Counted from the first letter of the stretch, positions 5,785 through 47,340 are shown. The stretch is 47,340 nucleotides of DNA from a virus (IMGVR_UViG_3300031576_000082:1-47340), one strand, 5' to 3'. Notes: generated by a model from the sequence alone, not told the origin. Made by a program: numbers and translations.

Positions 5785-6114
5785 TCACAACAACCGAAAG
5801 CCGCCGCCGCCAAAGCCGCCGCCAAAACCACCGCCGCCGCCGCCTGGGACATACCCCAACGGAAAACTCGCCGATCCGGTAGCCCCCGAGATCGACACAG
5901 CGCCCGGCGGCGCGCCCGGCGCCGCAAGTCCAGCCAACACCTTACGAGCGCCAAATAAACGCATCACCCGGCGAGTACGGCGGGTCATTAACTGACGGCC
6001 AGCAGCGGCTTCATCGGCATCGGCGCGGGCTTGGGCTACCTTCATGCGCTGTTCTTCAGCTAAACGGATTTCCGTCTGTTGGGCGGTTTCACGCGGAGCT
6101 TTTGGAGATTTCAC
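5785..6114 (-). CDS. Small protein with helical N-terminus and glycine-rich tail
   Basis: 109 aa, GTG start. Residues 1-45 form a charged, alanine-rich, probably helical region. Then comes a basic patch (RRTRRVMRLFGARKVLAG), and the last 20 residues are almost only glycine and phenylalanine (GGGGGGFGGGFGGGGFRLL). Short proteins with this layout often precede the portal in podoviruses. The phenylalanine/glycine tail could be a flexible binding segment. Function unknown. It lies 3 bases upstream of the portal and shares its frame of translation coupling. Confidence 0.6.
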   Translation of the reverse strand: MKSPKAPRETAQQTEIRLAEEQRMKVAQARADADEAAAGRQLMTRRTRRVMRLFGARKVLAGLAAPGAPPGAVSISGATGSASFPLGYVPGGGGGGFGGGFGGGGFRLL

Positions 6115-7839: not shown

Positions 7840-8075
7840 TTGACGCTCGCCCAATAGTGCTGCGCCGCCGCCAATTGTCCAAGCATCAAGCAGCGTAGCG
7901 TTGACGGGCTGTCTGGAATAATATTGAAGCCGTCGATTTCGCCGCCCACAGTAATGTAGCGCACACATAGCGCCGAGATGCCGTCCGCCTCCAGCCTTGC
8001 TTGCAAGTCGGCGACCCAGCCTAAAACCTCTTGTCTGGCGCACTCTCTTTCCGGGAACAACGAAACCACATTCAT
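7836..8075 (-). CDS. Small conserved hypothetical protein next to terminase
   Basis: 79 aa, from the ATG at 8075. ATGA overlaps join it both to the large terminase gene upstream and to the next gene downstream, so it belongs to a tightly coupled trio. It starts MNVVSLFPERECARQEVL and ends HYWASVK, and is mixed helix and strand by composition. No motif recognised. Confidence 0.62.
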   Translation of the reverse strand: MNVVSLFPERECARQEVLGWVADLQARLEADGISALCVRYITVGGEIDGFNIIPDSPSTLRCLMLGQLAAAQHYWASVK

Positions 8076-9703
8076 CGTGAAAACCTCCGACCTACGGTGA
8101 ACAGCCGCCGCTTCTTCGGGGCGGCATTCTGGATGCGCGCCTTCTGCACGCCGGCGGGTTGGATAATCTCGCGCGCCTCGCCGCCGCCCCATAATGCATA
8201 ACACGTCGCCTCAAACACATGCGAATCGGCGTTCTTCACAATGTCCTCCACCAGCTTGAGGCCGTCCGCCGTCTTCACCCGCCGTATCTGGGCGCCGCCG
8301 CCAAGCGCCGCAATAAGCCGCTTGCAACGCGGATGCACCATCAATCTTGGACGCCCATTGTGTTCGGTGGCGAGCAGCCGGCGAATCGTTTCAAGCCGTA
8401 ATTGCGGCTTGTCCTTGAGCGCCGGGGGCCGCATGGCGACGCCGTGGGCGTTATAGATTTGGAACGGGGTGCGCGAATCGGTGGAGCCGCCGCGCCATCC
8501 ACCCTGCGGATCGCCCCATGCGGCATAGCCGCCGCGACCCTCGATCACCCACGGGAAGCGCGCGGCTATTACTTGACGCACCTGCGGCGCGAATTCATCC
8601 GTCGTGGTGTTCGTCGCCGTCAACTCGTCGAACACAATCCAGCTGCCGGCGATGTTTTGCAGGAACACGCATGCCGGGGTCAAGCCATGATCGGCGCCGA
8701 TCACAATGCCGGCGCCGTCGAACGGCTCCACCGCTTCGCGGCACACATGCCGCTCGCGCCGATATTGCGGCGTGGCTGGGGCGCCGACCTTAACCCGCAC
8801 CACTCGGCCGAGAAGATCGCGATCGATTTCGTCCTTGGTTTTGCCGCCGGTCAATTCGATGTAGCGGTGCGGGCGCGGCGGCGTCTGGCCCAACGCCTTT
8901 GCTTCACGCTCCAAGCGATCCATCTCCACAGTAGAGCGCGCGCCATCGCGCATGTGCTCCACATTCTCGGCCTCCGGGCTAACCTCGTACCCGCGTACAT
9001 TTTGCCCATCTGGCGTCATAATCTCCAGTAGCGCCGGCGCTTGGCGGAAGAATTGCACGCCAGCCGGCTTGATAAATTGCATCGCCTCTTCCAATGGCAT
9101 ATCCAAAGGCAACGGCACATCGCCGCGCATCCGTAGAATCCAGTGGTCATCGGTGAACGGCGCGTTGTTATCCGCCACGAGAAACTGCGTCAGCCCTTCA
9201 CCTGGCGTCAAGACGTGCGCCAGATCAATGCGGCGCGGATAGCGCCCGGTGCGCGAGGCGATCTCAAACACCAGCCGGCGCGGAAAAAACTGACACTCGT
9301 TGATCCATGCTCCGGTAAACTCCTTTGACCGCAGCGAGCGGATCGTGTCGTCGCGGTCATCAAGAAACGACTCGAACACGATCTCCGCTTCTGCATCGCG
9401 AAACTTCATTGAGAAGGTGTAGGGCTCGGTATCGCGAAACTTGCCATACACTTCCGGCTTGAACCAATTCAGGAAAGTCTCGACGGTGCTTCCGCGCAAA
9501 TCCGGGTAACTATTCCTAGTCACCAGCCAACGCGAGCGGCGCTTGCCGTCCCTCATCCGGGGCATCGTGCAAATACCCACGTAGATCGCCATCGCACAAG
9601 CGGTGGACTTGCCCGATTCAATCGGCCCCTCGATAAACCTGATCGGCGACTTGGAGCGCAGGAAATCCGCTATCGTTGGCCCGGACGGGCGATAGATGGC
9701 CAT
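8072..9703 (-). CDS. terL: Terminase large subunit (packaging ATPase and nuclease)
   Basis: 543 aa. It cuts concatemeric DNA and pumps it into the prohead through the portal. Walker A is GPIESGKS at about residues 26-33. Walker B is in GAWINE at about 131-136, with the glutamate at the catalytic place. The C-terminal nuclease has the expected acidic residues in IGADHG (D338), WGDPQGG (D398) and NADSHVFEA (D493). The end is basic (KKRRLFTVGRRFSR). Unusually, it lies about 5.8 kb downstream of the small-terminase-like gene, with a tail fibre and small structural genes in between. Confidence 0.93.
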   Translation of the reverse strand: MAIYRPSGPTIADFLRSKSPIRFIEGPIESGKSTACAMAIYVGICTMPRMRDGKRRSRWLVTRNSYPDLRGSTVETFLNWFKPEVYGKFRDTEPYTFSMKFRDAEAEIVFESFLDDRDDTIRSLRSKEFTGAWINECQFFPRRLVFEIASRTGRYPRRIDLAHVLTPGEGLTQFLVADNNAPFTDDHWILRMRGDVPLPLDMPLEEAMQFIKPAGVQFFRQAPALLEIMTPDGQNVRGYEVSPEAENVEHMRDGARSTVEMDRLEREAKALGQTPPRPHRYIELTGGKTKDEIDRDLLGRVVRVKVGAPATPQYRRERHVCREAVEPFDGAGIVIGADHGLTPACVFLQNIAGSWIVFDELTATNTTTDEFAPQVRQVIAARFPWVIEGRGGYAAWGDPQGGWRGGSTDSRTPFQIYNAHGVAMRPPALKDKPQLRLETIRRLLATEHNGRPRLMVHPRCKRLIAALGGGAQIRRVKTADGLKLVEDIVKNADSHVFEATCYALWGGGEAREIIQPAGVQKARIQNAAPKKRRLFTVGRRFSR

Positions 9704-26345: not shown

Positions 26346-26620
26346 CTCCTATCGAACGCCTATATCACGGCTCACGCACACTGCCGCCGAAGCTGCAAGC
26401 GATGATCGCGCGCTACATTGAGGGCGCGGACGAAGGACGTGACGCAGTGAAACTCTTCCAAAACGGCGCGCGCTTGCTGAACGACATGTTCAAGCGAGCA
26501 GATGCGGGAGACAAGGAAGCGCTGGAGGCGATGCGTCGGGACCGAATTGACGGCTTCGCTATCGTAATAGCGGCGGAACTATTCGCCAGCGCGGCATTAG
26601 CTCTTGAGCGCGGGAGATGA
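26342..26620 (+). CDS. Small helical hypothetical protein
   Basis: 92 aa from the ATG at 26342 (ATGA overlap). MTPIERLYHGSRTLPPKLQA, then NGARLLNDMFKRADAGDKEA and a C-terminal helix with VIAAELFASAALALERGR. Almost wholly alpha-helical. Unknown function in the recombination operon. Confidence 0.55.
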   Translation: MTPIERLYHGSRTLPPKLQAMIARYIEGADEGRDAVKLFQNGARLLNDMFKRADAGDKEALEAMRRDRIDGFAIVIAAELFASAALALERGR

Positions 26621-26624
26621 CCTA

Positions 26625-27314
26625 ATGAAAGAGATTGCTACCCTGACAATTATGCGCGCGCAGCTGGACGCGAACAGCTTCTATATTGGCCCCGATGTGT
26701 CGGATTGGACCGGGCACATCGAAATTGCCGCAGACCTCGGCACCGTCTGGTTCACCGGCGCTATCAAGGCTCTTGGTAGGATCAGGTCGCTAGCTGGCTC
26801 GGGCATCTATGCTGGCGAGGGCATCGAAGCTGGCCGGGGCATCGAAGCTGGCGAGGGCATCGAAGCTGGCCGGGGTATCAAAGCTGGCTGGGGTATCAAA
26901 GCTGGCCGGGGCATCGAAGCTGGCTGGGGCATCGAAGCTGGCTCGGGCATCGAAGCTGGCCGGGGCATCGAAGCTGGCTCGGGCATCGAAGCTGGCCGGG
27001 GCATCGAAGCTGGCTGGGGCATCGAAGCTGGCGAGGGCATCGAAGCTGGCCGGGGCATCGAAGCTGGCGAGGGCATCGAAGCTGGCCGGGGCATCGAAGC
27101 TGGCGAGGGCATCGAAGCTGGCGAGGGCATCGAAGCTGGCTGGGGTATCAAAGCTGGCTGGTCCGTACAAGCAACATTTGTTGCCGTTCGGCTACGCATC
27201 TTCGTCGGGTTGTGTTCGTGGCGAGCGCCAACCAAGCACGAAATGCAGCTGCGCGCCGAGCTTCGGGAGGGCATGCTCGCCTACGGCGAGCATGTCGCCC
27301 CCGCGCCAATGTAG
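26625..27314 (+). CDS. Protein built of 21 AGxGIx hexapeptide repeats
   Basis: 229 aa from the ATG at 26625 (GGGAGA upstream). Residues 1-56 are a normal globular start (LTIMRAQLDANSFYIGPDVS). Residues 57-182 are 21 tandem hexapeptides AG(E/R/W/S)GI(E/K), and residues 183-229 a normal C-terminus. The pattern of small residues and regular Ile suggests a stacked beta-helix with the variable residue on the surface. Proteins with such GIxAGxGI repeats occur in phages and bacteria without known function. The variable third position and charged sixth position alternate acidic and basic along the fold. It may bind a repetitive ligand. Confidence 0.72.
   Translation: MKEIATLTIMRAQLDANSFYIGPDVSDWTGHIEIAADLGTVWFTGAIKALGRIRSLAGSGIYAGEGIEAGRGIEAGEGIEAGRGIKAGWGIKAGRGIEAGWGIEAGSGIEAGRGIEAGSGIEAGRGIEAGWGIEAGEGIEAGRGIEAGEGIEAGRGIEAGEGIEAGEGIEAGWGIKAGWSVQATFVAVRLRIFVGLCSWRAPTKHEMQLRAELREGMLAYGEHVAPAPM
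26793..27170 (+). repeat. Tandem 18-bp repeats, 21 units, inside a coding gene
   Basis: Unit GCTGGCNNGGGCATCGAA, 378 bases. Changes are concentrated in codon 3 (GAG, CGG, TGG, TCG) and codon 6 (GAA, AAA). All six frames stay open through most of the array, which produces spurious ORFs on both strands. Such arrays expand and contract by slippage or recombination. Confidence 0.95.
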
Positions 27315-27324
27315 GCCTTCACAT

Positions 27325-27353
27325 TTGCGACATAGTGACACCGCTACTATACA
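27325..27353 (+). promoter_or_regulatory. Promoter of the regulator-integrase operon, with operators
   Basis: TTGCGA (27325-27330), 17-base spacer, TATACA (27348-27353). Inverted 18-bp motif copies at 27338-27355 and 27368-27385 overlap and follow the -10, including the inverted pairs ACCGCTAC/GTAGCGGT and GCTACCA/TGGTAGC. The whole block is matched by the minus-strand promoter at 16.4 kb. Confidence 0.62.
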
Positions 27354-27398
27354 GCTACCAAGATTGTGATATATGGTAGCGGTATAGGAGCAAGACAG

Positions 27399-27752
27399 AT
27401 GGCCCAATCTGGAAAGCAAATCACGATCCGCCTAAGCGAGGATCAAGTCGCCACGTTGCACGCGCTCACCCCGCGCTATGGGGGCCGCATCAAGGCAACA
27501 ATCGTCGCCGGCCTGAGCACCCTCGCAGGTCAGACCGACATTAACCTCCCAGACGCGCTAGAACGCGCCGCAGCGCTGATTCGCCAGATGACACCACTAG
27601 AGCCACGGACATTCAATCCAGCGCCCACGGCCACCACAGCGCCGCCTAGCGCTATCTATCCGCCCGCAGCAGACCCCACGTCTCTCAATGACGCCGCCCG
27701 CCAGGCCGCCGCTCTTCGCTTCGCCAAGCCAACGCAACAACAGGTCAAGTGA
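27399..27752 (+). CDS. Ribbon-helix-helix-type DNA-binding protein
   Basis: 117 aa from the ATG at 27399 with AGGAG 8 bases upstream. KQITIRLSEDQVATLHALTP (about residues 6-25) followed by GRIKATIVAGLSTLAG looks like an RHH fold; the remaining 70 residues are proline- and alanine-rich and probably disordered. The paired operator motifs lie just upstream, so autoregulation is likely. It may also act at 16.4 kb. Directly upstream of the integrase, it might alternatively be an excisionase. Confidence 0.6.
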   Translation: MAQSGKQITIRLSEDQVATLHALTPRYGGRIKATIVAGLSTLAGQTDINLPDALERAAALIRQMTPLEPRTFNPAPTATTAPPSAIYPPAADPTSLNDAARQAAALRFAKPTQQQVK

Positions 27753-28618
27753 ACATGTTACAGACGATCGCCCATTACCGCGCCTCACCGCGATGGACCA
27801 CGTTGCGGGAGCGCACCCGCCGATCCTACGAGGAGAAACTTCGGCAATTGCTCGCTTGGCACAAGGCCAAGCCGGTCAAACTGGCGACGCTCAGGCTGAG
27901 CGATGCGCTGGCATTCCTGGACACTTATGCTGATCGCCCATCGCAGCGCGAGCATTTACGGGCCATGCTGTCGGTGTTGATCACTGAAACGATCTTGATG
28001 GGGCGGCGGGAAACCAACCCGTTTGCTCGGCTAAAGTTCCGCCGTACCCGCGCGAAGAAGGCGGTAGTGTTGTGGACACGCGACGATGTGGCAGCTTATC
28101 AAACTACAGCCCAAGCCAATGGCTGGCCGGGCGGCGCCATCATGATTCGCACATTATGGGAAACCGCCGCCCGCCTGAGCGATGCGCTGCTCTGGCGCAA
28201 GGACATTCACTGGATCGACGCTGCGGCCGGATCGGCGATCGAGTACGAAACCTCCAAGGTTGGGGTGTACGGCTATGCGCCAATCTCGGCCGCGCTTGGC
28301 GCGGCAATCCGCGCCACCCCAGGTGAACATCTGGTGACTGACCGCTGCGGCCAGCCATACAGGCCAGTGATCGACGATGATCGGGTAACTACGGATTTCC
28401 GCTGGTTGCGGCGTGCTGTAATTAAATCTGGCGGACGCCACTTATTACTGCGCTGCTTGCGCCACTCGGCCGCGACGGACGCTATCGATCACGGCATGAC
28501 GGCTGATCAGACCCGCGCCTTGACCACACACCAGACGGAAGCGGTGTTGGTCAGCACGTACGCTAAGCGCACGAGGAAGCAGGCGCGGCAAGTACAGGTC
28601 GCGCGGGGGATCATATGA
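27749..28618 (+). CDS. int: Tyrosine recombinase / integrase
   Basis: 289 aa from a GTG overlapping the upstream stop (GTGA); ATG at 27755 is an alternative. N-terminal SAM-like DNA-binding part (residues 1-95), then the catalytic domain with R142 (WETAARLSDALL), K170 (ETSKV), R238 in RCLRHSAATD, H261 (TTHQT) and nucleophile Y271 (STYAKRT). The usual His of HxxR is Arg here (R235). The gene inserts or excises the phage chromosome, so it marks the phage as temperate or derived from one. It is the last rightward gene and converges with the PagL-like gene 7 bases away. No attachment core was identified. Confidence 0.88.
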   Translation: MNMLQTIAHYRASPRWTTLRERTRRSYEEKLRQLLAWHKAKPVKLATLRLSDALAFLDTYADRPSQREHLRAMLSVLITETILMGRRETNPFARLKFRRTRAKKAVVLWTRDDVAAYQTTAQANGWPGGAIMIRTLWETAARLSDALLWRKDIHWIDAAAGSAIEYETSKVGVYGYAPISAALGAAIRATPGEHLVTDRCGQPYRPVIDDDRVTTDFRWLRRAVIKSGGRHLLLRCLRHSAATDAIDHGMTADQTRALTTHQTEAVLVSTYAKRTRKQARQVQVARGII

Positions 28619-28625
28619 CAGGCAA

Positions 28626-29177
28626 TCACTCATTCAAGCGATACCCCAGCCGCAAGCCGATCTGATCCAAGCCTTGGTTGCGCCCGCGGCCTATGATTTG
28701 CCCGTGACTCAGATGCTCAACCAACAGCGTCGCTTCCCACGGCCCAGGTAAATCGCGCACAACACCGAGCGATATGTGGAACAAATCGCGCGAGCCTAGC
28801 GATACGTGCTCACGAGTGGCGTCCTCGATATAACCAGAATGCAGCACATAGCCAAAGCTGGCCTCAAGCGCCCAATCGTCGGTCAGATCACGGCGCCATT
28901 GTAGTCCGCCGCCGGCGAAGCTGGTTTCCCCGGCGGTGTTTATTGACGCGACTAGATATGGGCTGGGCGACCCTATCCCATTGAGCAAATCTGGTGACTC
29001 AAGCACGACCTCCCATTCCGCATTCGGTCCAGCGCTCTTGCTGAGGGTATTGCAGCGCACTGCGCAATTGGTCATCCCCACCGACACGCGCTCGACCTCA
29101 AGATCTTCCGCCAAGGCCGTTGGCGCGGCGGATAGAGCCAAGAACGCCGTCAAGGCGGAAAGGCTATTCTTTTTCAC
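28626..29177 (-). CDS. PagL-like lipid A 3-O-deacylase, outer-membrane beta-barrel
   Basis: 183 aa from a GTG at 29177 with GGAG 12 bases upstream. A signal peptide with ALA cleavage at about residue 23 is clear. The mature part has SLGSRDLFHISLGVVRDL and then LLVEHLSHGQIIGRGRNQGL, ending LRLGYRLNE. EHxS (H155, S157) and NxGL match the PagL active-site stretch (His-Ser dyad) and C-terminal strands. PagL removes the 3-O acyl chain of lipid A, altering LPS. Family assignment is from motif reading. Whether the enzyme is active or the protein is an LPS-masking factor is unknown. Last gene of the three-gene cargo cassette. Confidence 0.72.
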   Translation of the reverse strand: MKKNSLSALTAFLALSAAPTALAEDLEVERVSVGMTNCAVRCNTLSKSAGPNAEWEVVLESPDLLNGIGSPSPYLVASINTAGETSFAGGGLQWRRDLTDDWALEASFGYVLHSGYIEDATREHVSLGSRDLFHISLGVVRDLPGPWEATLLVEHLSHGQIIGRGRNQGLDQIGLRLGYRLNE

Positions 29178-29184
29178 GGTGCAG

Positions 29185-30549
29185 TTACTCCGCCACCAAC
29201 GCCGCCCTGGCGAGCGCCAAGTGTTCCAGCGAGCGCTCAATCGATGGATTGGCCACGCATCCACGCCGCCGGCTGCTGAAAGGGAACACCAGACGCAAGA
29301 TCACGTTGGGCTGGCAGGCCCGCGTTTGTCTGGCGGCTTCCCGCAATTCTTCCACTGCGCTGGCGCTAACGCTGGCTTGCGTCAGTACAGTGAGGCCGTC
29401 CGTAAGCTCTTCATGCGCCAAGATGAGAATGTTGCGGCCAACGATGATGGACCCGATAATCACGATATCGTCGGATCGGAGCAGGCTCTCGGCGCGGCGA
29501 ATGTTCTCCAGGGCGTTCACTACTCGCAGGAAGTTGGCGACGTTTTGCACCTGGGTGGTGGTGAGGCTGATCTGCCCCACAGTCGTCGCCGCTGGCGACG
29601 TGTTGAACTCAACGGAATCATAGAACTCAACCGCTTCCTCTAGCGTGCTGATTGAATTGTTGTGAAAGAATGGGCCGGTGTCAGCGGCTTCCACCAGCGA
29701 CGGCGTGTTGAACGTACCATCGCCGGGCCCGCGCCCACGCCCATCGTCCGGTTGCGGAACAGGCCGACCAAAGAGTTGGGCTGGAGTATTTTGTAACCGC
29801 TCAACGCCAGTGTTGAAATTGGCGTTGCCGAGCGGTCCCAGGATGGCCGGGTCCACGTCGGCGCCGGCGTTGTGGTGGCATGTCCCGCACTTAGCCTCAC
29901 CCATGAACAAGGCCTGGCCGGCGGCGGCGGACACATTATGGAGAGGCAGGGGTAGCGCCAATTCGTCTGGACGCGACAGCGACAACATGAACGCTTCCAG
30001 CGCCCGCGCTTCTTGCTCGGTCGGCAGGCGGAAATCCACACCCTCCTGCCGCGCCAAGGTGCGCGTGAAATGCTGGCTCACCGCGCCCGCCGAGAACGAG
30101 CGGAGGCTGCCATCGCCGGGGCTGCCATCACCGCCGTGGCCGAGATGCGGTCCCTCGGAGCTGGCCACGGTGTGACGCAGCCCGAATAGCGACGGGACGG
30201 CCCGCAGGTTGAACCGGCTCAAATCCTCGAATCCGTCTAAATTCTCCTTGACCAGCAGATTCTCTCGCAATTGGGCCGATTCCTCCAACGTGGCCAAATC
30301 GGGGTTGGTCTCGGCCACGAACAAGGGGTCGGCGGCTGGCAGGCGGCGCACGGTCGCCCCCGTCAGTGAGTAATTGTCCTCGGCCCGGTGACAGCTTGAG
30401 CAGGTCCGCCCGTTGCCATCGAAGGTCTCTTCGAAGAACAATCGCTGGCCCTGGATGACCAATTGCTCAGGCGTGGGGTCAACCCCTGGGCCAGCGCAAG
30501 AACTCACCAGCACCGCTGCCAGCGCGATTACAGAGGCTTTGACGATCAT
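29185..30549 (-). CDS. Dihaem cytochrome c peroxidase / MauG-type lipoprotein
   Basis: 454 aa with a lipobox (VLVSSC, Cys18). Two haem sites, CSSCH (residues 50-54) and CGTCH (221-225), plus the family stretch TFNTPSLVEAADTGPFFHNN (about 279-298) then STLEEAVEFYDS. Such enzymes reduce hydrogen peroxide in the periplasm or carry out MauG-like oxidations. A C-terminal extension (about 330-454) is unusual and has no known motif. Start ATG overlaps the subtilase stop (ATGA). A haem peroxidase with lipid anchor is a surprising phage cargo gene and fits envelope modification or defence against oxidative stress. Confidence 0.85.
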   Translation of the reverse strand: MIVKASVIALAAVLVSSCAGPGVDPTPEQLVIQGQRLFFEETFDGNGRTCSSCHRAEDNYSLTGATVRRLPAADPLFVAETNPDLATLEESAQLRENLLVKENLDGFEDLSRFNLRAVPSLFGLRHTVASSEGPHLGHGGDGSPGDGSLRSFSAGAVSQHFTRTLARQEGVDFRLPTEQEARALEAFMLSLSRPDELALPLPLHNVSAAAGQALFMGEAKCGTCHHNAGADVDPAILGPLGNANFNTGVERLQNTPAQLFGRPVPQPDDGRGRGPGDGTFNTPSLVEAADTGPFFHNNSISTLEEAVEFYDSVEFNTSPAATTVGQISLTTTQVQNVANFLRVVNALENIRRAESLLRSDDIVIIGSIIVGRNILILAHEELTDGLTVLTQASVSASAVEELREAARQTRACQPNVILRLVFPFSSRRRGCVANPSIERSLEHLALARAALVAE

Positions 30550-31838
30550 GGTGTGGATCCTAGCCGAGTATTGGCGTCAAAGAGTGCGATGCGGGGGCGA
30601 CCGGAGCCCACTGGGCCGGTAGCCTCAAGCGCCAGTTCGAGCTGCGTCACATTGGCGTTGGGGAAGCGCGACCGCAGCGCGGCGAAGGCGCCGACCACAT
30701 GCGGGGTAGCCATCGACGTGCCGCTTAGGGCTTGGAACCCCCGCCCCGGAACCGATGATGTGATGGCCACGCCAGGGGCATGCAGATCGGTTTGCGGCCC
30801 GCAATTGGAGAAGCTGGCGATACGGTCGCGCTTATCCGTCGCGCCGATGGTGACAGCGCTGGAAATGCAGCCGGGAAAGCTGACAGAATCGCGCAACCCA
30901 TCATTGCCGGAAGCAATTACCGTCGCCACCCCAGCCGAACGCAATTGATCGACCACCATTTTCATCGGCTCGGTATCGCAGAAGCCGCGCTCGCGCCCGC
31001 CGCCGAGGGAGAGATTCACCGCCGCGACCCGCTGGGAAGCGTTTTGTTGCAGCACGAAATCCAGCCCGCGGATGATATCGGACGTGAACGCGCCAGTGGA
31101 TTGACCGAAGCGGCTGAACACCTGAACGGCGATGATATTGGCGTCTGGGGCTATGCCGGAGAAACTTTCGCCACGGCCGGCGGCGATACCTGCAACGTGG
31201 GTGCCGTGAAGGCATCCGGTGATCTGGCAGGGACGAGCAGCGCCAGGGCCGATCTGAGACGCCTCGCCGTTCGGGCATACCGATCTCGATTGCCCAGAAG
31301 TTGTCGAAAAACACGCTTCTGCATTCACGCGGCCGCTCAAGAACGGATGCGCCGCATCAACGCCGGTATCCAGAATGGCTACAGCCTGCCCGGCGCCGCG
31401 CCCACCCAGCTCCCAAAGCCGCGGCGCCTGCACCAGCGGCGCACTGTCGGATAGACTCATTTCCATCACGCGATCTTCGCTCCAACTGGCGAATGCCCAA
31501 TGGTAATAGAGTGCGTCCACTAATTGCACTTCGGTCAGTTCGACAACAACAAACGGTAGGGTGCCGCCAAGCGGCGCGGCTTCAATCCCGTAGGATCGAA
31601 AGATGTTTTGCGCTTCTGCCAACGCAGCCGTCCTTGCGCCGGGCTCTCGTCGCGCTAAGCGGATAATCACCCGCACGCTGCCATGCGTCGCCGCGCTTTG
31701 CCGCAGTGCTTGCAATGTGTCAGCGGGAGACGCCGCCACAGCAGCGTTGTCTGACGCAACCGGCGCGCACCGCGGTCGCGCCGCGCACGCCCCTAGAATT
31801 GCGGCGATGGCGACAGTCGAAATCAGTGTACGAAGCAT
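30546..31838 (-). CDS. Secreted subtilisin-like serine protease, lipoprotein
   Basis: 430 aa with a signal peptide and lipobox (ILGAC, Cys18). The S8 catalytic triad is D157 (AILDTGVD), H214 (HGTHVAGI) and S375 (GTSMATPH); the oxyanion asparagine is in ASGNDG (N312). Residues 40-125 form an inhibitor-I9-like prodomain (VRVIIRLARREPGARTAALA). Several cysteines (for example C177, C188, C204, C209) suggest disulphide bonds and export. First gene of the cargo cassette, preceded by AGGAG and its own promoter. Coupled to the peroxidase gene by ATGA. It could process the peroxidase or degrade envelope proteins; this is inference. Confidence 0.9.
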   Translation of the reverse strand: MLRTLISTVAIAAILGACAARPRCAPVASDNAAVAASPADTLQALRQSAATHGSVRVIIRLARREPGARTAALAEAQNIFRSYGIEAAPLGGTLPFVVVELTEVQLVDALYYHWAFASWSEDRVMEMSLSDSAPLVQAPRLWELGGRGAGQAVAILDTGVDAAHPFLSGRVNAEACFSTTSGQSRSVCPNGEASQIGPGAARPCQITGCLHGTHVAGIAAGRGESFSGIAPDANIIAVQVFSRFGQSTGAFTSDIIRGLDFVLQQNASQRVAAVNLSLGGGRERGFCDTEPMKMVVDQLRSAGVATVIASGNDGLRDSVSFPGCISSAVTIGATDKRDRIASFSNCGPQTDLHAPGVAITSSVPGRGFQALSGTSMATPHVVGAFAALRSRFPNANVTQLELALEATGPVGSGRPRIALFDANTRLGSTP

Positions 31839-31866
31839 TGTGCCTCTCCTTTAAAAAAGCGACGCG

Positions 31867-31895
31867 CATATAGCACCGCCAGCGCGGTTTGCCAA
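31867..31895 (-). promoter_or_regulatory. Sigma70-like promoter of the envelope cargo cassette
   Basis: On the minus strand TTGGCA (31895-31890), 17-base spacer, TATATG (31872-31867). Transcription would start near 31860, about 22 bases before the subtilase ATG, with AGGAG in between. Own promoters are typical of phage moron genes that are expressed in lysogens. Confidence 0.62.
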
Positions 31896-31916: not shown

Positions 31917-32126
31917 TTAGTCGTCGTCGAACAGCGGTCCCTTGGCGGTGATCCGGCCCCACAGCACGACGAGCGCGCCAATGGCGTCAACGGCGGCAAG
32001 CAGCGCCTGCTCCAATTCTTGGCCGATCTCTTCACTGATCGGCGTCTCTTTCAGGAACATATTAACGATCAGGATAATCAAACCCCAAATCGTCTTGGAC
32101 CCGAGTGCATTGCTTAATTGGCTCAT
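31917..32126 (-). CDS. Holin-like small membrane protein
   Basis: 69 aa from the ATG at 32126. Two hydrophobic helices: SKTIWGLIILIVNMFLK (about residues 10-26) and ALLAAVDAIGALVVLWG (about 41-57), with a short soluble tail ITAKGPLFDDD. This is a common phage protein fold (KTIWG ... VIGxxxxxWGRITAKxPL) usually listed as holin or holin-like. No endolysin gene is next to it. It sits at the end of the virion genes, just before the cargo cassette. Confidence 0.68.
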   Translation of the reverse strand: MSQLSNALGSKTIWGLIILIVNMFLKETPISEEIGQELEQALLAAVDAIGALVVLWGRITAKGPLFDDD

Positions 32127-32167
32127 GATGCAAAGCCTAGGCGCCGCGCCTGACCGACCAAAACGCA

Positions 32168-34771
32168 CTATTGCGGTTGCGGCAACAGAGGGTCCTGATC
32201 CTCGTTCGCCAGATCAAGGGTCCGCAAATCAGGCGCTTGCAGCGGCCCGCCCGGCGGAAACCACATTCCCTGTTCGACGCGCGCCGCTCGTCTGGCGAAG
32301 TCCTCATCAGCCTCGGGATCGACCAAGCGCTGCATATTGTCCCAAAACAATCGATCTACCGCCAGATCGGTCGCCCATGTGCGCGGCACATATTGGCGCG
32401 CAGTCTTGATCCCCTGCCGGCCAAGCCGAGTGCGGTCCTCATGCAGTCCAAGCGCGGCGCCAGCCTCATCAATCGCGGCGCCGCCAAGGCCCAAGGTGCT
32501 AAAGAGCACATCGATGGTCGGGCCGAGAAAATGCGCGGCGCCCTGCGCGCGGCTCTCTGGATCGAATGCGCCCTGGAACAGGTCTTGGAAGAAGCCCAAT
32601 GAGACGGTGCGCCAGAATACACGATCCCAGAACCTCCAATCGGTAATGTCGGGCGCTTCCTTGCCGTGCAGCAAATCGGCAACCACCGTGCCAATACCAA
32701 CCAAAACCATGGACGGGAATAGAATGGACAATCCGTAATAGCGCGCCGCGCCGATCGTACTGCGCACGCTGACGCCTTCACGCCAGAATATGTGTGCTGC
32801 CCGTGCGCCATGATGCTGGAAATGTGAAATCGTATAGCTCTTGAGTTTCGACACGGAGCCGATGAGGGTGCCTACAATCGTGCCCGGACGAAACGGCAGG
32901 ATGCGCGCTGAACGCGGCGTCCCGGAGACGGTCGCGAACTCGCCCTCCTCCTTGATCATCGACATGACGCGCAGCGCTACATCCAGGCCAGAGGTCAGGC
33001 CGGGACGCGCATCCGGCAATAAGGTCAGGAGCGACGTTGCCCCTATGTCACGGGGTCGCACGACGCGTAGACCAACACGCGAACGCGGCGTTGCCTGTAC
33101 ATAGGCCCAGGCGTTTTCATCGATGTTGTAGCGCTCCAGCATATCGCGAAACGCTGGCGGCAATTTGGAATACGCGGTCGCTTGGTGGCGAGTCAGCTCA
33201 TGCAGCGCGCCCATGGTCCACATGGCGCGCGATCCCATGGTCATCGGCTTAAGCCCGCTGAAAGTGAAAGCGCGATCCACGATAAAGCGGCTGTACGGAT
33301 GGCCGTGCAGGACAGCCATGTCTCGCGCCTCGGAAGTCATTGTGGACAAACCAGCGTCAATCTCGACGCCCAATTCAGCCAATTCCTGCTTGTTGGTGGA
33401 TAAGCGCAGCGCATCCACCAGATCGCGCATCATGCCATTAACAGACACGGAGTTGAACGCGCGGGTCGCTGCTTGATTGACTAAATCGCTGGTAACATAG
33501 AGGGGTGTGAACGCGAGCTTGTTGGCGTAGACCAGATTGTTAATCGTGCCCTCAAACGCGGTCCATCCATCGTGCTCCGGTTTGCGCGCTTCGCCGGTGA
33601 AGTGACGCCACGAGTTTTGCACGCCCATGGCTTTGTCCTTGCCGTACTGCCGCCGCCCGGCAATGTTGCTAAATGGCGCCCCCACATCGTTGCGTGTGGG
33701 AAACAAGGCTGGTCGCCCAGCGCCCGCATCCCGCGCCGCTTTCATGATCAGGCCGCCCTCGTGGCCGTGACTTCCGGCAAGCCATTCGATTGTGCGCGCC
33801 GGATTAGGCCCAAGCCGCTGCATGGCGACGATATCGCCGTTGATTGAGCGCAGGTAGCCAGCCATGACCTCAAACACATGCTGATTACCGCCAAATTGCT
33901 TGTGGTATTGCTCCCAGGCGGCGGCGTTTTTGAACACGAAGAATCGCGGGTCGTTGCGGCGGCGCCAGAATGCCGTCCCCGCGCCGTCAACGTCGGCGTC
34001 ACCGCCAATCCCACGCCACACTATCGTCTCGAATATCTCCTCTAGAGCGGCGTCATACTCCAGCGGTTTAAATGGTTGCCCAGTCAGCATGTTGACCATG
34101 CGCGTCATGTCGGTGGTGGCAAGAATGGTCTTACGCCATGCCGGGAACTTCGCGCGGTCTATTGAGATGCTGTCGTGTCGCTGCGGCTCAGCCCAGTCAT
34201 CGCGCATCGCGGCGACGCCGCCAGCGCCATTGTATTGTTCGATCTTGCGCCGCGAGAGCGCGCGCCATGCGTCGGCAAACGCCTTGGCGGTCACGTCGCC
34301 GGTGTTTTCACCATGAAGTTCCCGGCGCAAGAGTGCGGCGCGCGTTGGATTGAGCCGTTGTCCACGAAACGCGGTGCGGCGGAACTCATGCGCGAGCTGC
34401 GATAAATCTGCTAAATCAAGCGCGGTGAGCGCCTGCGCATCGAAGTACATATGATTGATCAATTGCAGACCGTATTCGCCGATGTCAGCCTCGCCCTTAT
34501 TGGGATGACGCGCAGCATCTGCCAAAATGCGGTTCTCCGCTTCAGTCTGCAATTGAGCGGAGCGCGCGCGTTCCGCCGCCATCTGTTTAAGCATACGGTC
34601 AAAGGCGTTATTGGCCTCGCGTTCGGCAAATGCCGCCGCGCCGGGCGTAGCGCCCAGACGCGCCATCTCATCGTTGAAGTTCATGGCGTACAGGAATTCG
34701 AGCCGCTTGCGATCCTGCTCGCCGAGACGCCCAGCCATAGCCTCGCGGCGCACACAGCGGATCAGGCTCAT
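32168..34771 (-). CDS. Internal virion (ejection) protein with C-terminal membrane segments
   Basis: 867 aa from the ATG at 34771 (ATGA overlap). The N-terminal third is charged and helical. The middle has LPPAFRDMLERYNIDENAWA, a motif I know from large podovirus ejection proteins, and the C-terminal third has hydrophobic segments such as YGLSILFPSMVLVGIGTVVA (about residues 670-690). By place it is the counterpart of part of T7 gp16, ejected with the DNA to build a channel across the envelope. Confidence 0.7.
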   Translation of the reverse strand: MSLIRCVRREAMAGRLGEQDRKRLEFLYAMNFNDEMARLGATPGAAAFAEREANNAFDRMLKQMAAERARSAQLQTEAENRILADAARHPNKGEADIGEYGLQLINHMYFDAQALTALDLADLSQLAHEFRRTAFRGQRLNPTRAALLRRELHGENTGDVTAKAFADAWRALSRRKIEQYNGAGGVAAMRDDWAEPQRHDSISIDRAKFPAWRKTILATTDMTRMVNMLTGQPFKPLEYDAALEEIFETIVWRGIGGDADVDGAGTAFWRRRNDPRFFVFKNAAAWEQYHKQFGGNQHVFEVMAGYLRSINGDIVAMQRLGPNPARTIEWLAGSHGHEGGLIMKAARDAGAGRPALFPTRNDVGAPFSNIAGRRQYGKDKAMGVQNSWRHFTGEARKPEHDGWTAFEGTINNLVYANKLAFTPLYVTSDLVNQAATRAFNSVSVNGMMRDLVDALRLSTNKQELAELGVEIDAGLSTMTSEARDMAVLHGHPYSRFIVDRAFTFSGLKPMTMGSRAMWTMGALHELTRHQATAYSKLPPAFRDMLERYNIDENAWAYVQATPRSRVGLRVVRPRDIGATSLLTLLPDARPGLTSGLDVALRVMSMIKEEGEFATVSGTPRSARILPFRPGTIVGTLIGSVSKLKSYTISHFQHHGARAAHIFWREGVSVRSTIGAARYYGLSILFPSMVLVGIGTVVADLLHGKEAPDITDWRFWDRVFWRTVSLGFFQDLFQGAFDPESRAQGAAHFLGPTIDVLFSTLGLGGAAIDEAGAALGLHEDRTRLGRQGIKTARQYVPRTWATDLAVDRLFWDNMQRLVDPEADEDFARRAARVEQGMWFPPGGPLQAPDLRTLDLANEDQDPLLPQPQ

Positions 34772-45805: not shown

Positions 45806-47235
45806 CAACGAACCTCCAGGGCGATTGAACGCACTTCCAGCGGTGCGGCCTCAATCTGCGTTAGCGCGAACGCAAAGTCACGCTTGCGCCCTAGATAGCG
45901 CGATTTGCGCCAACCCGTGCGCAGCGGCGGCGGTTGTGTCACGTCATCACTGACCCGGTACGCAGTGTAGCGCCTGCCATTGCCGTAAAACTGACCGGCG
46001 CGCAGCACATCAATCGCGGCCGAGGCAATTCGCTGCCATGTGTTTGCGCCCTCTTCCGCGTCCATCGGCGGCCACATCACTACGTCCGGCGCAAACCTGG
46101 CGCCGCCCTCGTAATCGCGCGCATCGGTGGGAGCGCCGGTCAACACGCCGCCGCCAGTTCCGACAAATTCACCCACATCGACGCGTCTGTTTTCGCTACC
46201 GCTCGTCACCCGCCAAACCAACGCCACGGTGCGATTGACGAACGCGGCGTTCGTCGGGGTCGTAGCGGCTGGATTGGTGAACAGCACGGAATTGTCCAGC
46301 AAACGATCCGCATCGAACCGCTCCAAGCTATAGGCGCTGGCGCGATTAACCACCGCATACACTTTCTTGCCGAACATCGCTGCGTCAACGAAAAGCCCAC
46401 CCGTAGTGGTCCAGACCGTCGCCCCGGCCAGCTCCGAATCACGGCGATAATGGATCGCACACACGCCGCCATCGGCGTTCACCGCCAGCACATAGCGTTC
46501 CGGCCCCCACTCAGAGCCATCCACAAGCAGCAAGCGTGTTGGCGTAACGAGCAATTCCGACGCCATCGACAGAATCTCGGCGGCCCCCCAGACGCGGCGC
46601 AATTGGCCGCTTGGCGCCAACAGCATTAGACGGTCGCCCTGAGTCTCCGAAAACACCACACCCTCCGCCGCCAAAATTGGGTTGCAATCGCCGGCAGTTT
46701 CGGGGCCAATGCGTAAAAACTCGACGGTCGTCGGCGTCACCGGCGTATTCGGCCCCTCGCCGACATAGTACGATCCCACCTCGGTTAAGCTCAGCAATTG
46801 TTCGCTCGAAACGCAGTGGCGCACGCGCCGGCCAAGCGCATCGCCAGGCCCATCGATGATGGCTTCGTCGTCCAAACCCTCGCCGATATCAAAATCCCCC
46901 GGCGTCGCCAACACGGACAACGCATGGACTTCCGGCGCACCGGGAAAATCCAACAATACAAGGCGATTTTTGTGGAACATGCAGCCGCCAGGGAAACCGC
47001 GCACGCTTGATATCATCTGCTCATCCCATTGCGTGGTGGCGCCGTTGGCGCCGGCCGCGCCCACCGCCGAGATAGCGCTGGTGGCGGATGGCCCGACCAG
47101 ATTGTTGGCGGTTACGCTAGGATCGGTGAAATTGTCGATAAACAGCAGGTCAACTTGTGTCCCGCTGACAACGCTGACCACTTCGTAATTGAAATCCTCC
47201 ACCGACGATGTGACTTGATCACCCACAGCAAATCC
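45805..47235 (-). CDS. Tail nozzle protein (T7 gp12-like), C-terminal part, joins 1-841 across the circle
   Basis: Continues the nozzle gene of 1-841; the true protein is 714 aa once base 47108 is joined to base 1. The apparent ATG at 47241 lies beyond the repeat in unrelated sequence and is an artefact. Key stretch: RGFPGGCMFHKNRLVLLDFP, then PGDFDIGEGLDDEAIIDGPG and LSLTEVGSYYVGEG with TPTTVEFLRIGPETAGDCNP, the hallmark of podovirus nozzle proteins (CMFHKNRL, followed by the PTTVxFLRIG and GVVFSETQGDRL segments). Stop at 45805 overlaps the gp14-like gene. Confidence 0.88.
   Translation of the reverse strand, partial: GFAVGDQVTSSVEDFNYEVVSVVSGTQVDLLFIDNFTDPSVTANNLVGPSATSAISAVGAAGANGATTQWDEQMISSVRGFPGGCMFHKNRLVLLDFPGAPEVHALSVLATPGDFDIGEGLDDEAIIDGPGDALGRRVRHCVSSEQLLSLTEVGSYYVGEGPNTPVTPTTVEFLRIGPETAGDCNPILAAEGVVFSETQGDRLMLLAPSGQLRRVWGAAEILSMASELLVTPTRLLLVDGSEWGPERYVLAVNADGGVCAIHYRRDSELAGATVWTTTGGLFVDAAMFGKKVYAVVNRASAYSLERFDADRLLDNSVLFTNPAATTPTNAAFVNRTVALVWRVTSGSENRRVDVGEFVGTGGGVLTGAPTDARDYEGGARFAPDVVMWPPMDAEEGANTWQRIASAAIDVLRAGQFYGNGRRYTAYRVSDDVTQPPPLRTGWRKSRYLGRKRDFAFALTQIEAAPLEVRSIALEVR
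47109..47235. repeat. 127-bp exact terminal repeat, copy 2
   Basis: Identical to 1-127. It is followed by 105 bases that differ from those following copy 1. See circular closure. Confidence 0.95.
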
Positions 47236-47340
47236 GCTCATTGGCGCGCGGACCTAGGCCGAGCGAGAATTGCTGCCCGGCCGGGGAAGCGCCCTCGACA
47301 CTCAACATCGTCAACGCCCCGCGCGCGGTCGCCAGCGTCA
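47236..47340. other. Unexplained 105-bp tail beyond the closing repeat
   Basis: Does not continue the nozzle gene: the nozzle frame meets a TAG 15 bases beyond the artefactual ATG. On the minus strand a different frame is open throughout (…LTMLSVEGASPAGQQF…), so it looks like coding DNA from a variant, another phage or a mis-joined read. I find no copy of it elsewhere in the window. Confidence 0.6.

Follow-up and report, generated by a model that had tools for sequence, protein, structure and literature searches.

A candidate moron-like envelope cassette of subtilase, two-haem MauG-like protein and PagL-family deacylase genes beside a phage integrase

The window analysed here, a stretch of 47,340 nucleotides of viral DNA, is an entire IMG/VR record (IMGVR_UViG_3300031576_000082), and three adjacent open reading frames lie on its minus strand at the end of the late operon (Table 1). 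They encode an S8 subtilase, a two-haem protein of the MauG/cytochrome c peroxidase (CcP) fold, and a homologue of the lipid A 3-O-deacylase PagL. An earlier note on this DNA had described the trio as a coupled unit of exported proteins, and its account of place and coupling is borne out. The S8 and two-haem genes overlap by ATGA, and the PagL gene starts at a GTG 7 nt past the two-haem stop codon rather than at the longer available ORF start; judged from this arrangement, the three genes are translationally linked. The claimed export also agrees with the N termini when read by eye, where lipoboxes occur in the S8 (LGAC) and two-haem (VSSC) proteins and a Sec-type signal peptide ending in an Ala-x-Ala-type site occurs in PagL. 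Likewise, the Pfam searches that the note had proposed returned all three families above their curated cut-offs: Peptidase_S8 (PF00082; E 4.2e-42, 144.9 bits against 21.8), CCP_MauG (28.6 bits against 25.6, with Cytochrom_C also matched), and PagL (PF09411; 30.6 bits against 23, a C-terminal profile match).

Table 1. Features of the cassette and its immediate neighbours, numbered from the first base of the window
Feature	Position	Strand	Basis
S8 subtilase, predicted lipoprotein with N-terminal pro-region	30546..31838	-	PF00082; alignment of relatives; subtilisin BPN' alignment
Two-haem MauG/CcP-fold protein, predicted lipoprotein	29185..30549	-	CCP_MauG and Cytochrom_C; MauG model match; conservation
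PagL-family lipid A 3-O-deacylase homologue, signal peptide	28626..29177	-	PF09411; PDB 2erv profile alignment; same-order relatives
Promoter-like site TTGGCA-N17-TATATG	31867..31895	-	9/12 consensus matches
Small membrane (holin-like) gene, last of late operon, directly upstream of cassette	31917..32168	-	Sequence and position only
Tyrosine integrase, convergent with cassette	27749..28618	+	phrog_1 integrase, E 4e-18; homologue at matching place in sibling phage

A gap of 79 bp separates the cassette from the holin-like gene, which likely starts at an internal ATG and for which the family searches gave no match apart from a weak one (E 0.011) to a family without known function. The promoter-like site lies in this gap, and an AAAGGAG ribosome-binding site precedes the S8 start codon. 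Since only seven sites scoring 9/12 or better occur on the minus strand of the whole window, the presence of one in the gap by chance is unlikely (about 0.01). The site was omitted by the promoter scan tool because the sixth base of its -10 hexamer is G. The earlier note had called it a good σ70 promoter; a promoter-like site is present, but at 9/12 matches the adjective goes rather far. A hairpin resembling a terminator, which spans the -10 region, was considered as an insulator and rejected, as it folds no better than shuffled sequence, and a scan of the window found no terminator 3′ of PagL on the minus strand. At the other end of the cassette, the PagL stop codon is 7 bp from the integrase gene.

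Two further features were seen on the far side of the integrase. Bases 26604-27314 of the window encode a protein of repeated GIEAGxGI(E/K)AGx units, in which the repeat keeps several frames open; it may be a variable-length coil or ligand. At 27343-27391, an 18-nt inverted repeat (89%) overlaps the start of the gene beside the integrase, which has a weak BrnA-type antitoxin match, and the repeat is a possible operator.

The position of the trio within the phage depends on how the record is closed. Bases 1-127 are repeated exactly at 47109-47235, and a tail gene split across the record ends becomes, when joined over the repeat, an uninterrupted frame of 715 residues, as compared to 712 for phrog_376. 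The last 105 bases (47236-47340) diverge. Although the record is classed as linear, the genome is therefore read from its sequence as nearly complete, circular or circularly permuted, and about 47.1 kb in length. As the record closes into a circle, the trio is internal to the phage, whose recognisable genes include capsid, terminase, connector, tail, primase/helicase and integrase.

A sibling phage, represented by two IMG/VR records that are essentially one phage, has the same gene order, with 52% identity in the phage protein gp869 and 38-39% in the integrase. Its gap between gp869 and the integrase holds small membrane genes and, as read from the sequence, the first half of a tRNA-Lys gene. 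This half-gene (anticodon CTT) lies at about 6000-6100 of locus L109 (IMGVR_UViG_3300032093_000365), in the interval from the end of the late operon to the integrase, and is probably the attachment site. A search near the integrase of the window found neither a tRNA nor a T-loop motif, and nothing resembling the sibling half-gene turned up in the window. No trio occurs anywhere in the 38-kb sibling record, in the available sequence of the second one, or at some 80 gp869 loci that are more distant; it was also absent within about 20 kb on each side, where the contig allowed, in distant prophages with capsids about 37-42% identical. Because the siblings lack the trio at the same locus, the cassette is an addition to one phage at the side of the attachment site.

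The S8 protein resembles subtilisin-type proteases such as QhpE, the mycosins and others in its subtilase domain and complete catalytic triad, whereas it differs from them in being a lipoprotein form from one alphaproteobacterial order. Catalytic Asp157, His211 and Ser375 and the oxyanion Asn312 are all present and invariant in the alignment with chromosomal relatives (57-62% identity), and several conserved cysteines are also kept; by these residues the active site is intact. A relative-rate test against its sister gave a mild excess of change (53 vs 34). None of the specialised NCBIfam S8 cut-offs was reached, and PADLOC returned only generic subtilase-type models.

PagL is similarly well preserved. 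His155 and Ser157 occupy the catalytic positions of the His-x-Ser motif, each conserved in 30 of 31 relatives, and the phage protein matches 22 of the 24 positions that are conserved in about 90% or more of those relatives, with up to 56% identity to homologues from the same order. In the profile alignment to PDB 2erv, Asp171 stands at the position of Glu140 in P. aeruginosa PagL, a substitution common to close relatives. The phage protein thus shares with 2erv a signal peptide, the C-terminal profile, His-x-Ser and an acid at the Glu140 position, but differs in having Asp for Glu and in its low overall identity. The comparison was made through sequence, the single-sequence model being poor (pLDDT 37) and unusable for the barrel fold. 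In its His and Ser the active site is intact, with Asp171 as the candidate third residue, and because His, Ser and an acid are kept, the LPS change that the earlier note had envisaged, through lipid A, is plausible.

The two-haem protein has diverged much further. Its haem motifs are CSSCH (residues 50-54) and CGTCH (residues 221-225). Foldseek alone gave no significant match for the predicted model (pTM 0.76); a second alignment programme applied to the Foldseek candidates matched it best to MauG (Z 16.6 over 268 residues) and to cytochrome c peroxidases and BthA at Z of about 14. Judged from this model, with two c-type haem motifs and a fold over residues 26-394 in common with MbnH, BthA and CcpA, membership of the CCP_MauG superfamily is secure; the MbnH and MauG profiles match only weakly. 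In contrast to that superfamily, the phage protein has a C-terminal helical extension, and the GPYMH motif of the second haem, with its Tyr/Met ligand, is replaced by TGPFFHN in both the phage and all aligned relatives. Other replacements are its own: His at residue 138, where 71 of 71 relatives have Trp, Ser at Gly192 (71/71), Ser at His120 (70/71) and Ala at Leu181 (70/71). Position 138 aligns with the Trp93-bearing FWDG motif of MauG, by motif alignment only as the model is poor at 132-142, and the replaced residue is probably the inter-haem Trp. This Trp is common to MauG and the previously characterised bacterial peroxidases (PMC6405878). However, BthA is active with Ser at the same position (PMC6405878), so the loss in the phage is notable without proving inactivity. 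The terminal branch of the phage protein measures 2.32 against a median of 0.25, and the relative-rate test against its closest metagenome-assembled genome (MAG) protein gave 94 vs 24 changes (P about 1e-10); by these measures the phage protein is evolving far faster than its kin.

What the phage lacks downstream of this gene is equally distinctive. Among 50 bacterial two-haem relatives of at least 45% identity, 43 have a small gene directly downstream on the same strand, and two of the remaining seven end at a contig edge. The gene (examples at L005:9285-9671, L009:9283-9675 and L010:9278-9655, with 40 more loci) encodes a secreted product, about 125 residues long, in which a Trp, a Glu, an Asp and a Lys are invariant; it matched no family above cut-off and gave at most weak matches, for example to DUF5666. 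Loci with this partner span about ten phyla and include all three tree rows closest to the phage enzyme. In the window, a search of frames down to 30 aa found no match to the partner, and its place is occupied by PagL. MauG is known to act on a protein substrate, and MbnH is paired with MbnP. By analogy, we infer that the bacterial pair consists of an enzyme and either the protein it acts on or its redox partner. The phage enzyme could then rely on a host-encoded partner, or serve as a simple periplasmic peroxidase, or be drifting under relaxed constraint. Given the loss of Trp138 and of the partner, the earlier label of dihaem peroxidase stands as to fold and superfamily and is unproven as to activity.

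Where the three genes came from can be judged from their chromosomal relatives. When about 85,000 genomes were scanned with the two-haem protein, 74 loci were recovered, the best (54%) in a Hyphomonadaceae MAG (G001) in which an S8 homologue (61%) adjoins the two-haem gene in divergent orientation. A Pfam search had suggested that this MAG lacks PagL; this proved to be a false negative, as a direct protein search found a homologue at 52% on another contig. In the order that holds the Hyphomonadaceae, the S8 family (E below 1e-40) was found in 12 of 200 sampled genomes and the two-haem gene in 2 of 200, while PagL homologues occurred in 259 of 388 sampled genomes, as compared to 36 of 367 for the class. 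In the trees, the S8 protein of the phage branches from within the orthologues of this order; its two-haem protein clusters with the row of the MAG and with further proteobacterial rows, on a long branch with modest support. With the best relatives of all three in one order, and all three in one MAG, the trio is host-derived cargo, probably captured from the phage's own host lineage, the alphaproteobacterial order in question. The GC content at third codon positions (GC3) is 0.66-0.75 in the trio, which is phage-like, and 0.77-0.88 in the relatives that were measured; either some time has passed since the capture, or the donor had a lower GC content.

Genes that modify the surface of the host are common phage cargo. 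Taken together, the evidence is best accounted for, with a probability of roughly 0.6, by a moron-like lysogenic-conversion cassette that was acquired from the host lineage and remodels the surface of the lysogen, mainly through PagL and S8. The cassette would be transcribed from its own promoter in the lysogen, PagL would remove the 3-O acyl chain of lipid A in the outer membrane, the lipoprotein protease would cleave surface or periplasmic proteins, and the two together could change, for example, phage receptors or vesicle release. In Salmonella, vesicle formation is triggered by PagL activity (PMC4958258). Three exported proteins, host-order origin, absence from siblings, linked translation and two intact active sites all favour this reading, as do the internal position in the circular genome, the phage-like GC3 and the promoter-like site. 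Against it, the trio is present in one phage only and so gives no sign of selection across lineages, the promoter scores 9/12 with no terminator confirmed, and the two-haem gene has changed at an accelerated rate. Moreover, a PagL homologue is already encoded by most genomes of the order, so the gain from a second one may be small.

The position after the holin-like gene would also fit late lytic expression, with the trio read from the late operon and the protease and deacylase weakening the outer membrane. The genes share the strand of the late genes and follow, after 79 bp, the last gene of the operon, the small membrane gene, in a place occupied in other phages by endolysin and spanin genes. 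No separate endolysin or spanin was recognised here, apart from stretches within other late proteins that resemble a transglycosylase or an endolysin. This role in lysis is nevertheless very unlikely: a promoter-like site stands between cassette and operon, siblings without the trio must still lyse their hosts, all three are ordinary chromosomal genes elsewhere, and a two-haem cytochrome needing periplasmic haem attachment makes little sense in such a programme. It is also unlikely, though less so, that the trio is functionless host DNA, acquired through an aberrant excision close to the attachment site and now decaying. Such cargo would explain its occurrence in one phage, beside the integrase, at the place of the likely attachment site in the sibling, as well as the very long branch and the lost invariant residues and partner of the two-haem gene. 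It sits poorly with three open frames joined by ATGA and 7-nt junctions, with phage-matching GC3, and with the retained catalytic residues of S8 and PagL, and the phage gene order is no straight copy of the MAG, in which the S8 and two-haem genes point away from each other and a different contig holds PagL.

The earlier note had also raised protection of the lysogen from peroxide, which would require the two-haem protein to be an active periplasmic peroxidase. The MauG/CcP fold, both retained haem motifs and the precedent of BthA, active although its inter-haem position holds Ser rather than Trp (PMC6405878), are in keeping with this. The proposal is weakened by the loss of Trp138 and His120, by Phe-Phe throughout the family in place of the Tyr/Met motif, and by the missing partner gene, the small secreted partner of the relatives fitting a protein-modifying enzyme better than a general peroxidase; as it also leaves the protease and PagL unexplained, it is highly improbable. 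Finally, the three enzymes could conceivably form a joint superinfection barrier that remodels the surface, in which PagL trims lipid A and favours the release of decoy vesicles, the protease cuts receptors, and the two-haem enzyme, in its altered form, acts on a host envelope protein by modifying or oxidising it. Such a barrier is quite unlikely, but if it existed it would constitute a phage exclusion system acting through lipid A deacylation and a repurposed MauG-like enzyme.

The earlier note had found the combination unfamiliar among phage morons, and the searches agree, the trio being known from a single phage genome. It was not found elsewhere in annotated phage records, IMG/VR scans, sibling phages, the viral structure library or the literature searched. 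Viral contigs were scanned singly with the two-haem protein, gp869 and S8, and yielded no relatives. Alignment-based viral scans found nothing related to the two-haem protein and, for S8, a single unrelated protein in another virus (L101). As these scans need exact conserved 7-10-mers, absence there is no proof. A tblastn search against phage records gave no two-haem or PagL match and only distant proteases for S8. For PagL, the search among phages covered annotated phage records and the sibling loci. In plasmids, S8 and PagL had only distant homologues, which occurred singly. The note had named lost catalytic residues, or one-off host DNA carried by chance, as what would count against its view, and the outcome is divided: one of the three genes has lost some likely catalytic residues and a single phage carries the trio, whereas phage-like codon-position GC, two preserved active sites and tight coupling speak against a fresh chance capture.

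As a kind of phage cargo, host-derived envelope genes at such a site are familiar; the gene content is new. Like known morons, for example O-antigen modifying genes, the trio consists of predicted host-derived, envelope-acting extras with a promoter-like site, is missing from siblings, and lies beside the integrase at the end of the late operon. Unlike them, it brings together a protease, a MauG-like protein and a lipid A deacylase homologue, with no terminator confirmed. In the collections searched, no other phage was found with a lipid A deacylase or with a MauG-like two-haem enzyme of this family, and if the cassette works as proposed, the phage would alter lipid A itself rather than the O-antigen.

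The bacterial pairing of a MauG-like enzyme with a small secreted partner represents a module for which no family name was found, and the phage copy, with the partner gone and the inter-haem Trp probably replaced, offers a natural experiment on what the enzyme needs. Duplication was also seen among the chromosomal relatives: tandem copies of the two-haem gene occur in one proteobacterial MAG (L030:6393-7760 and 7941-9314), and several chromosomes of the likely host order carry PagL-family genes duplicated in tandem (L237, L238, L239, L230, L231, L232 and L236).
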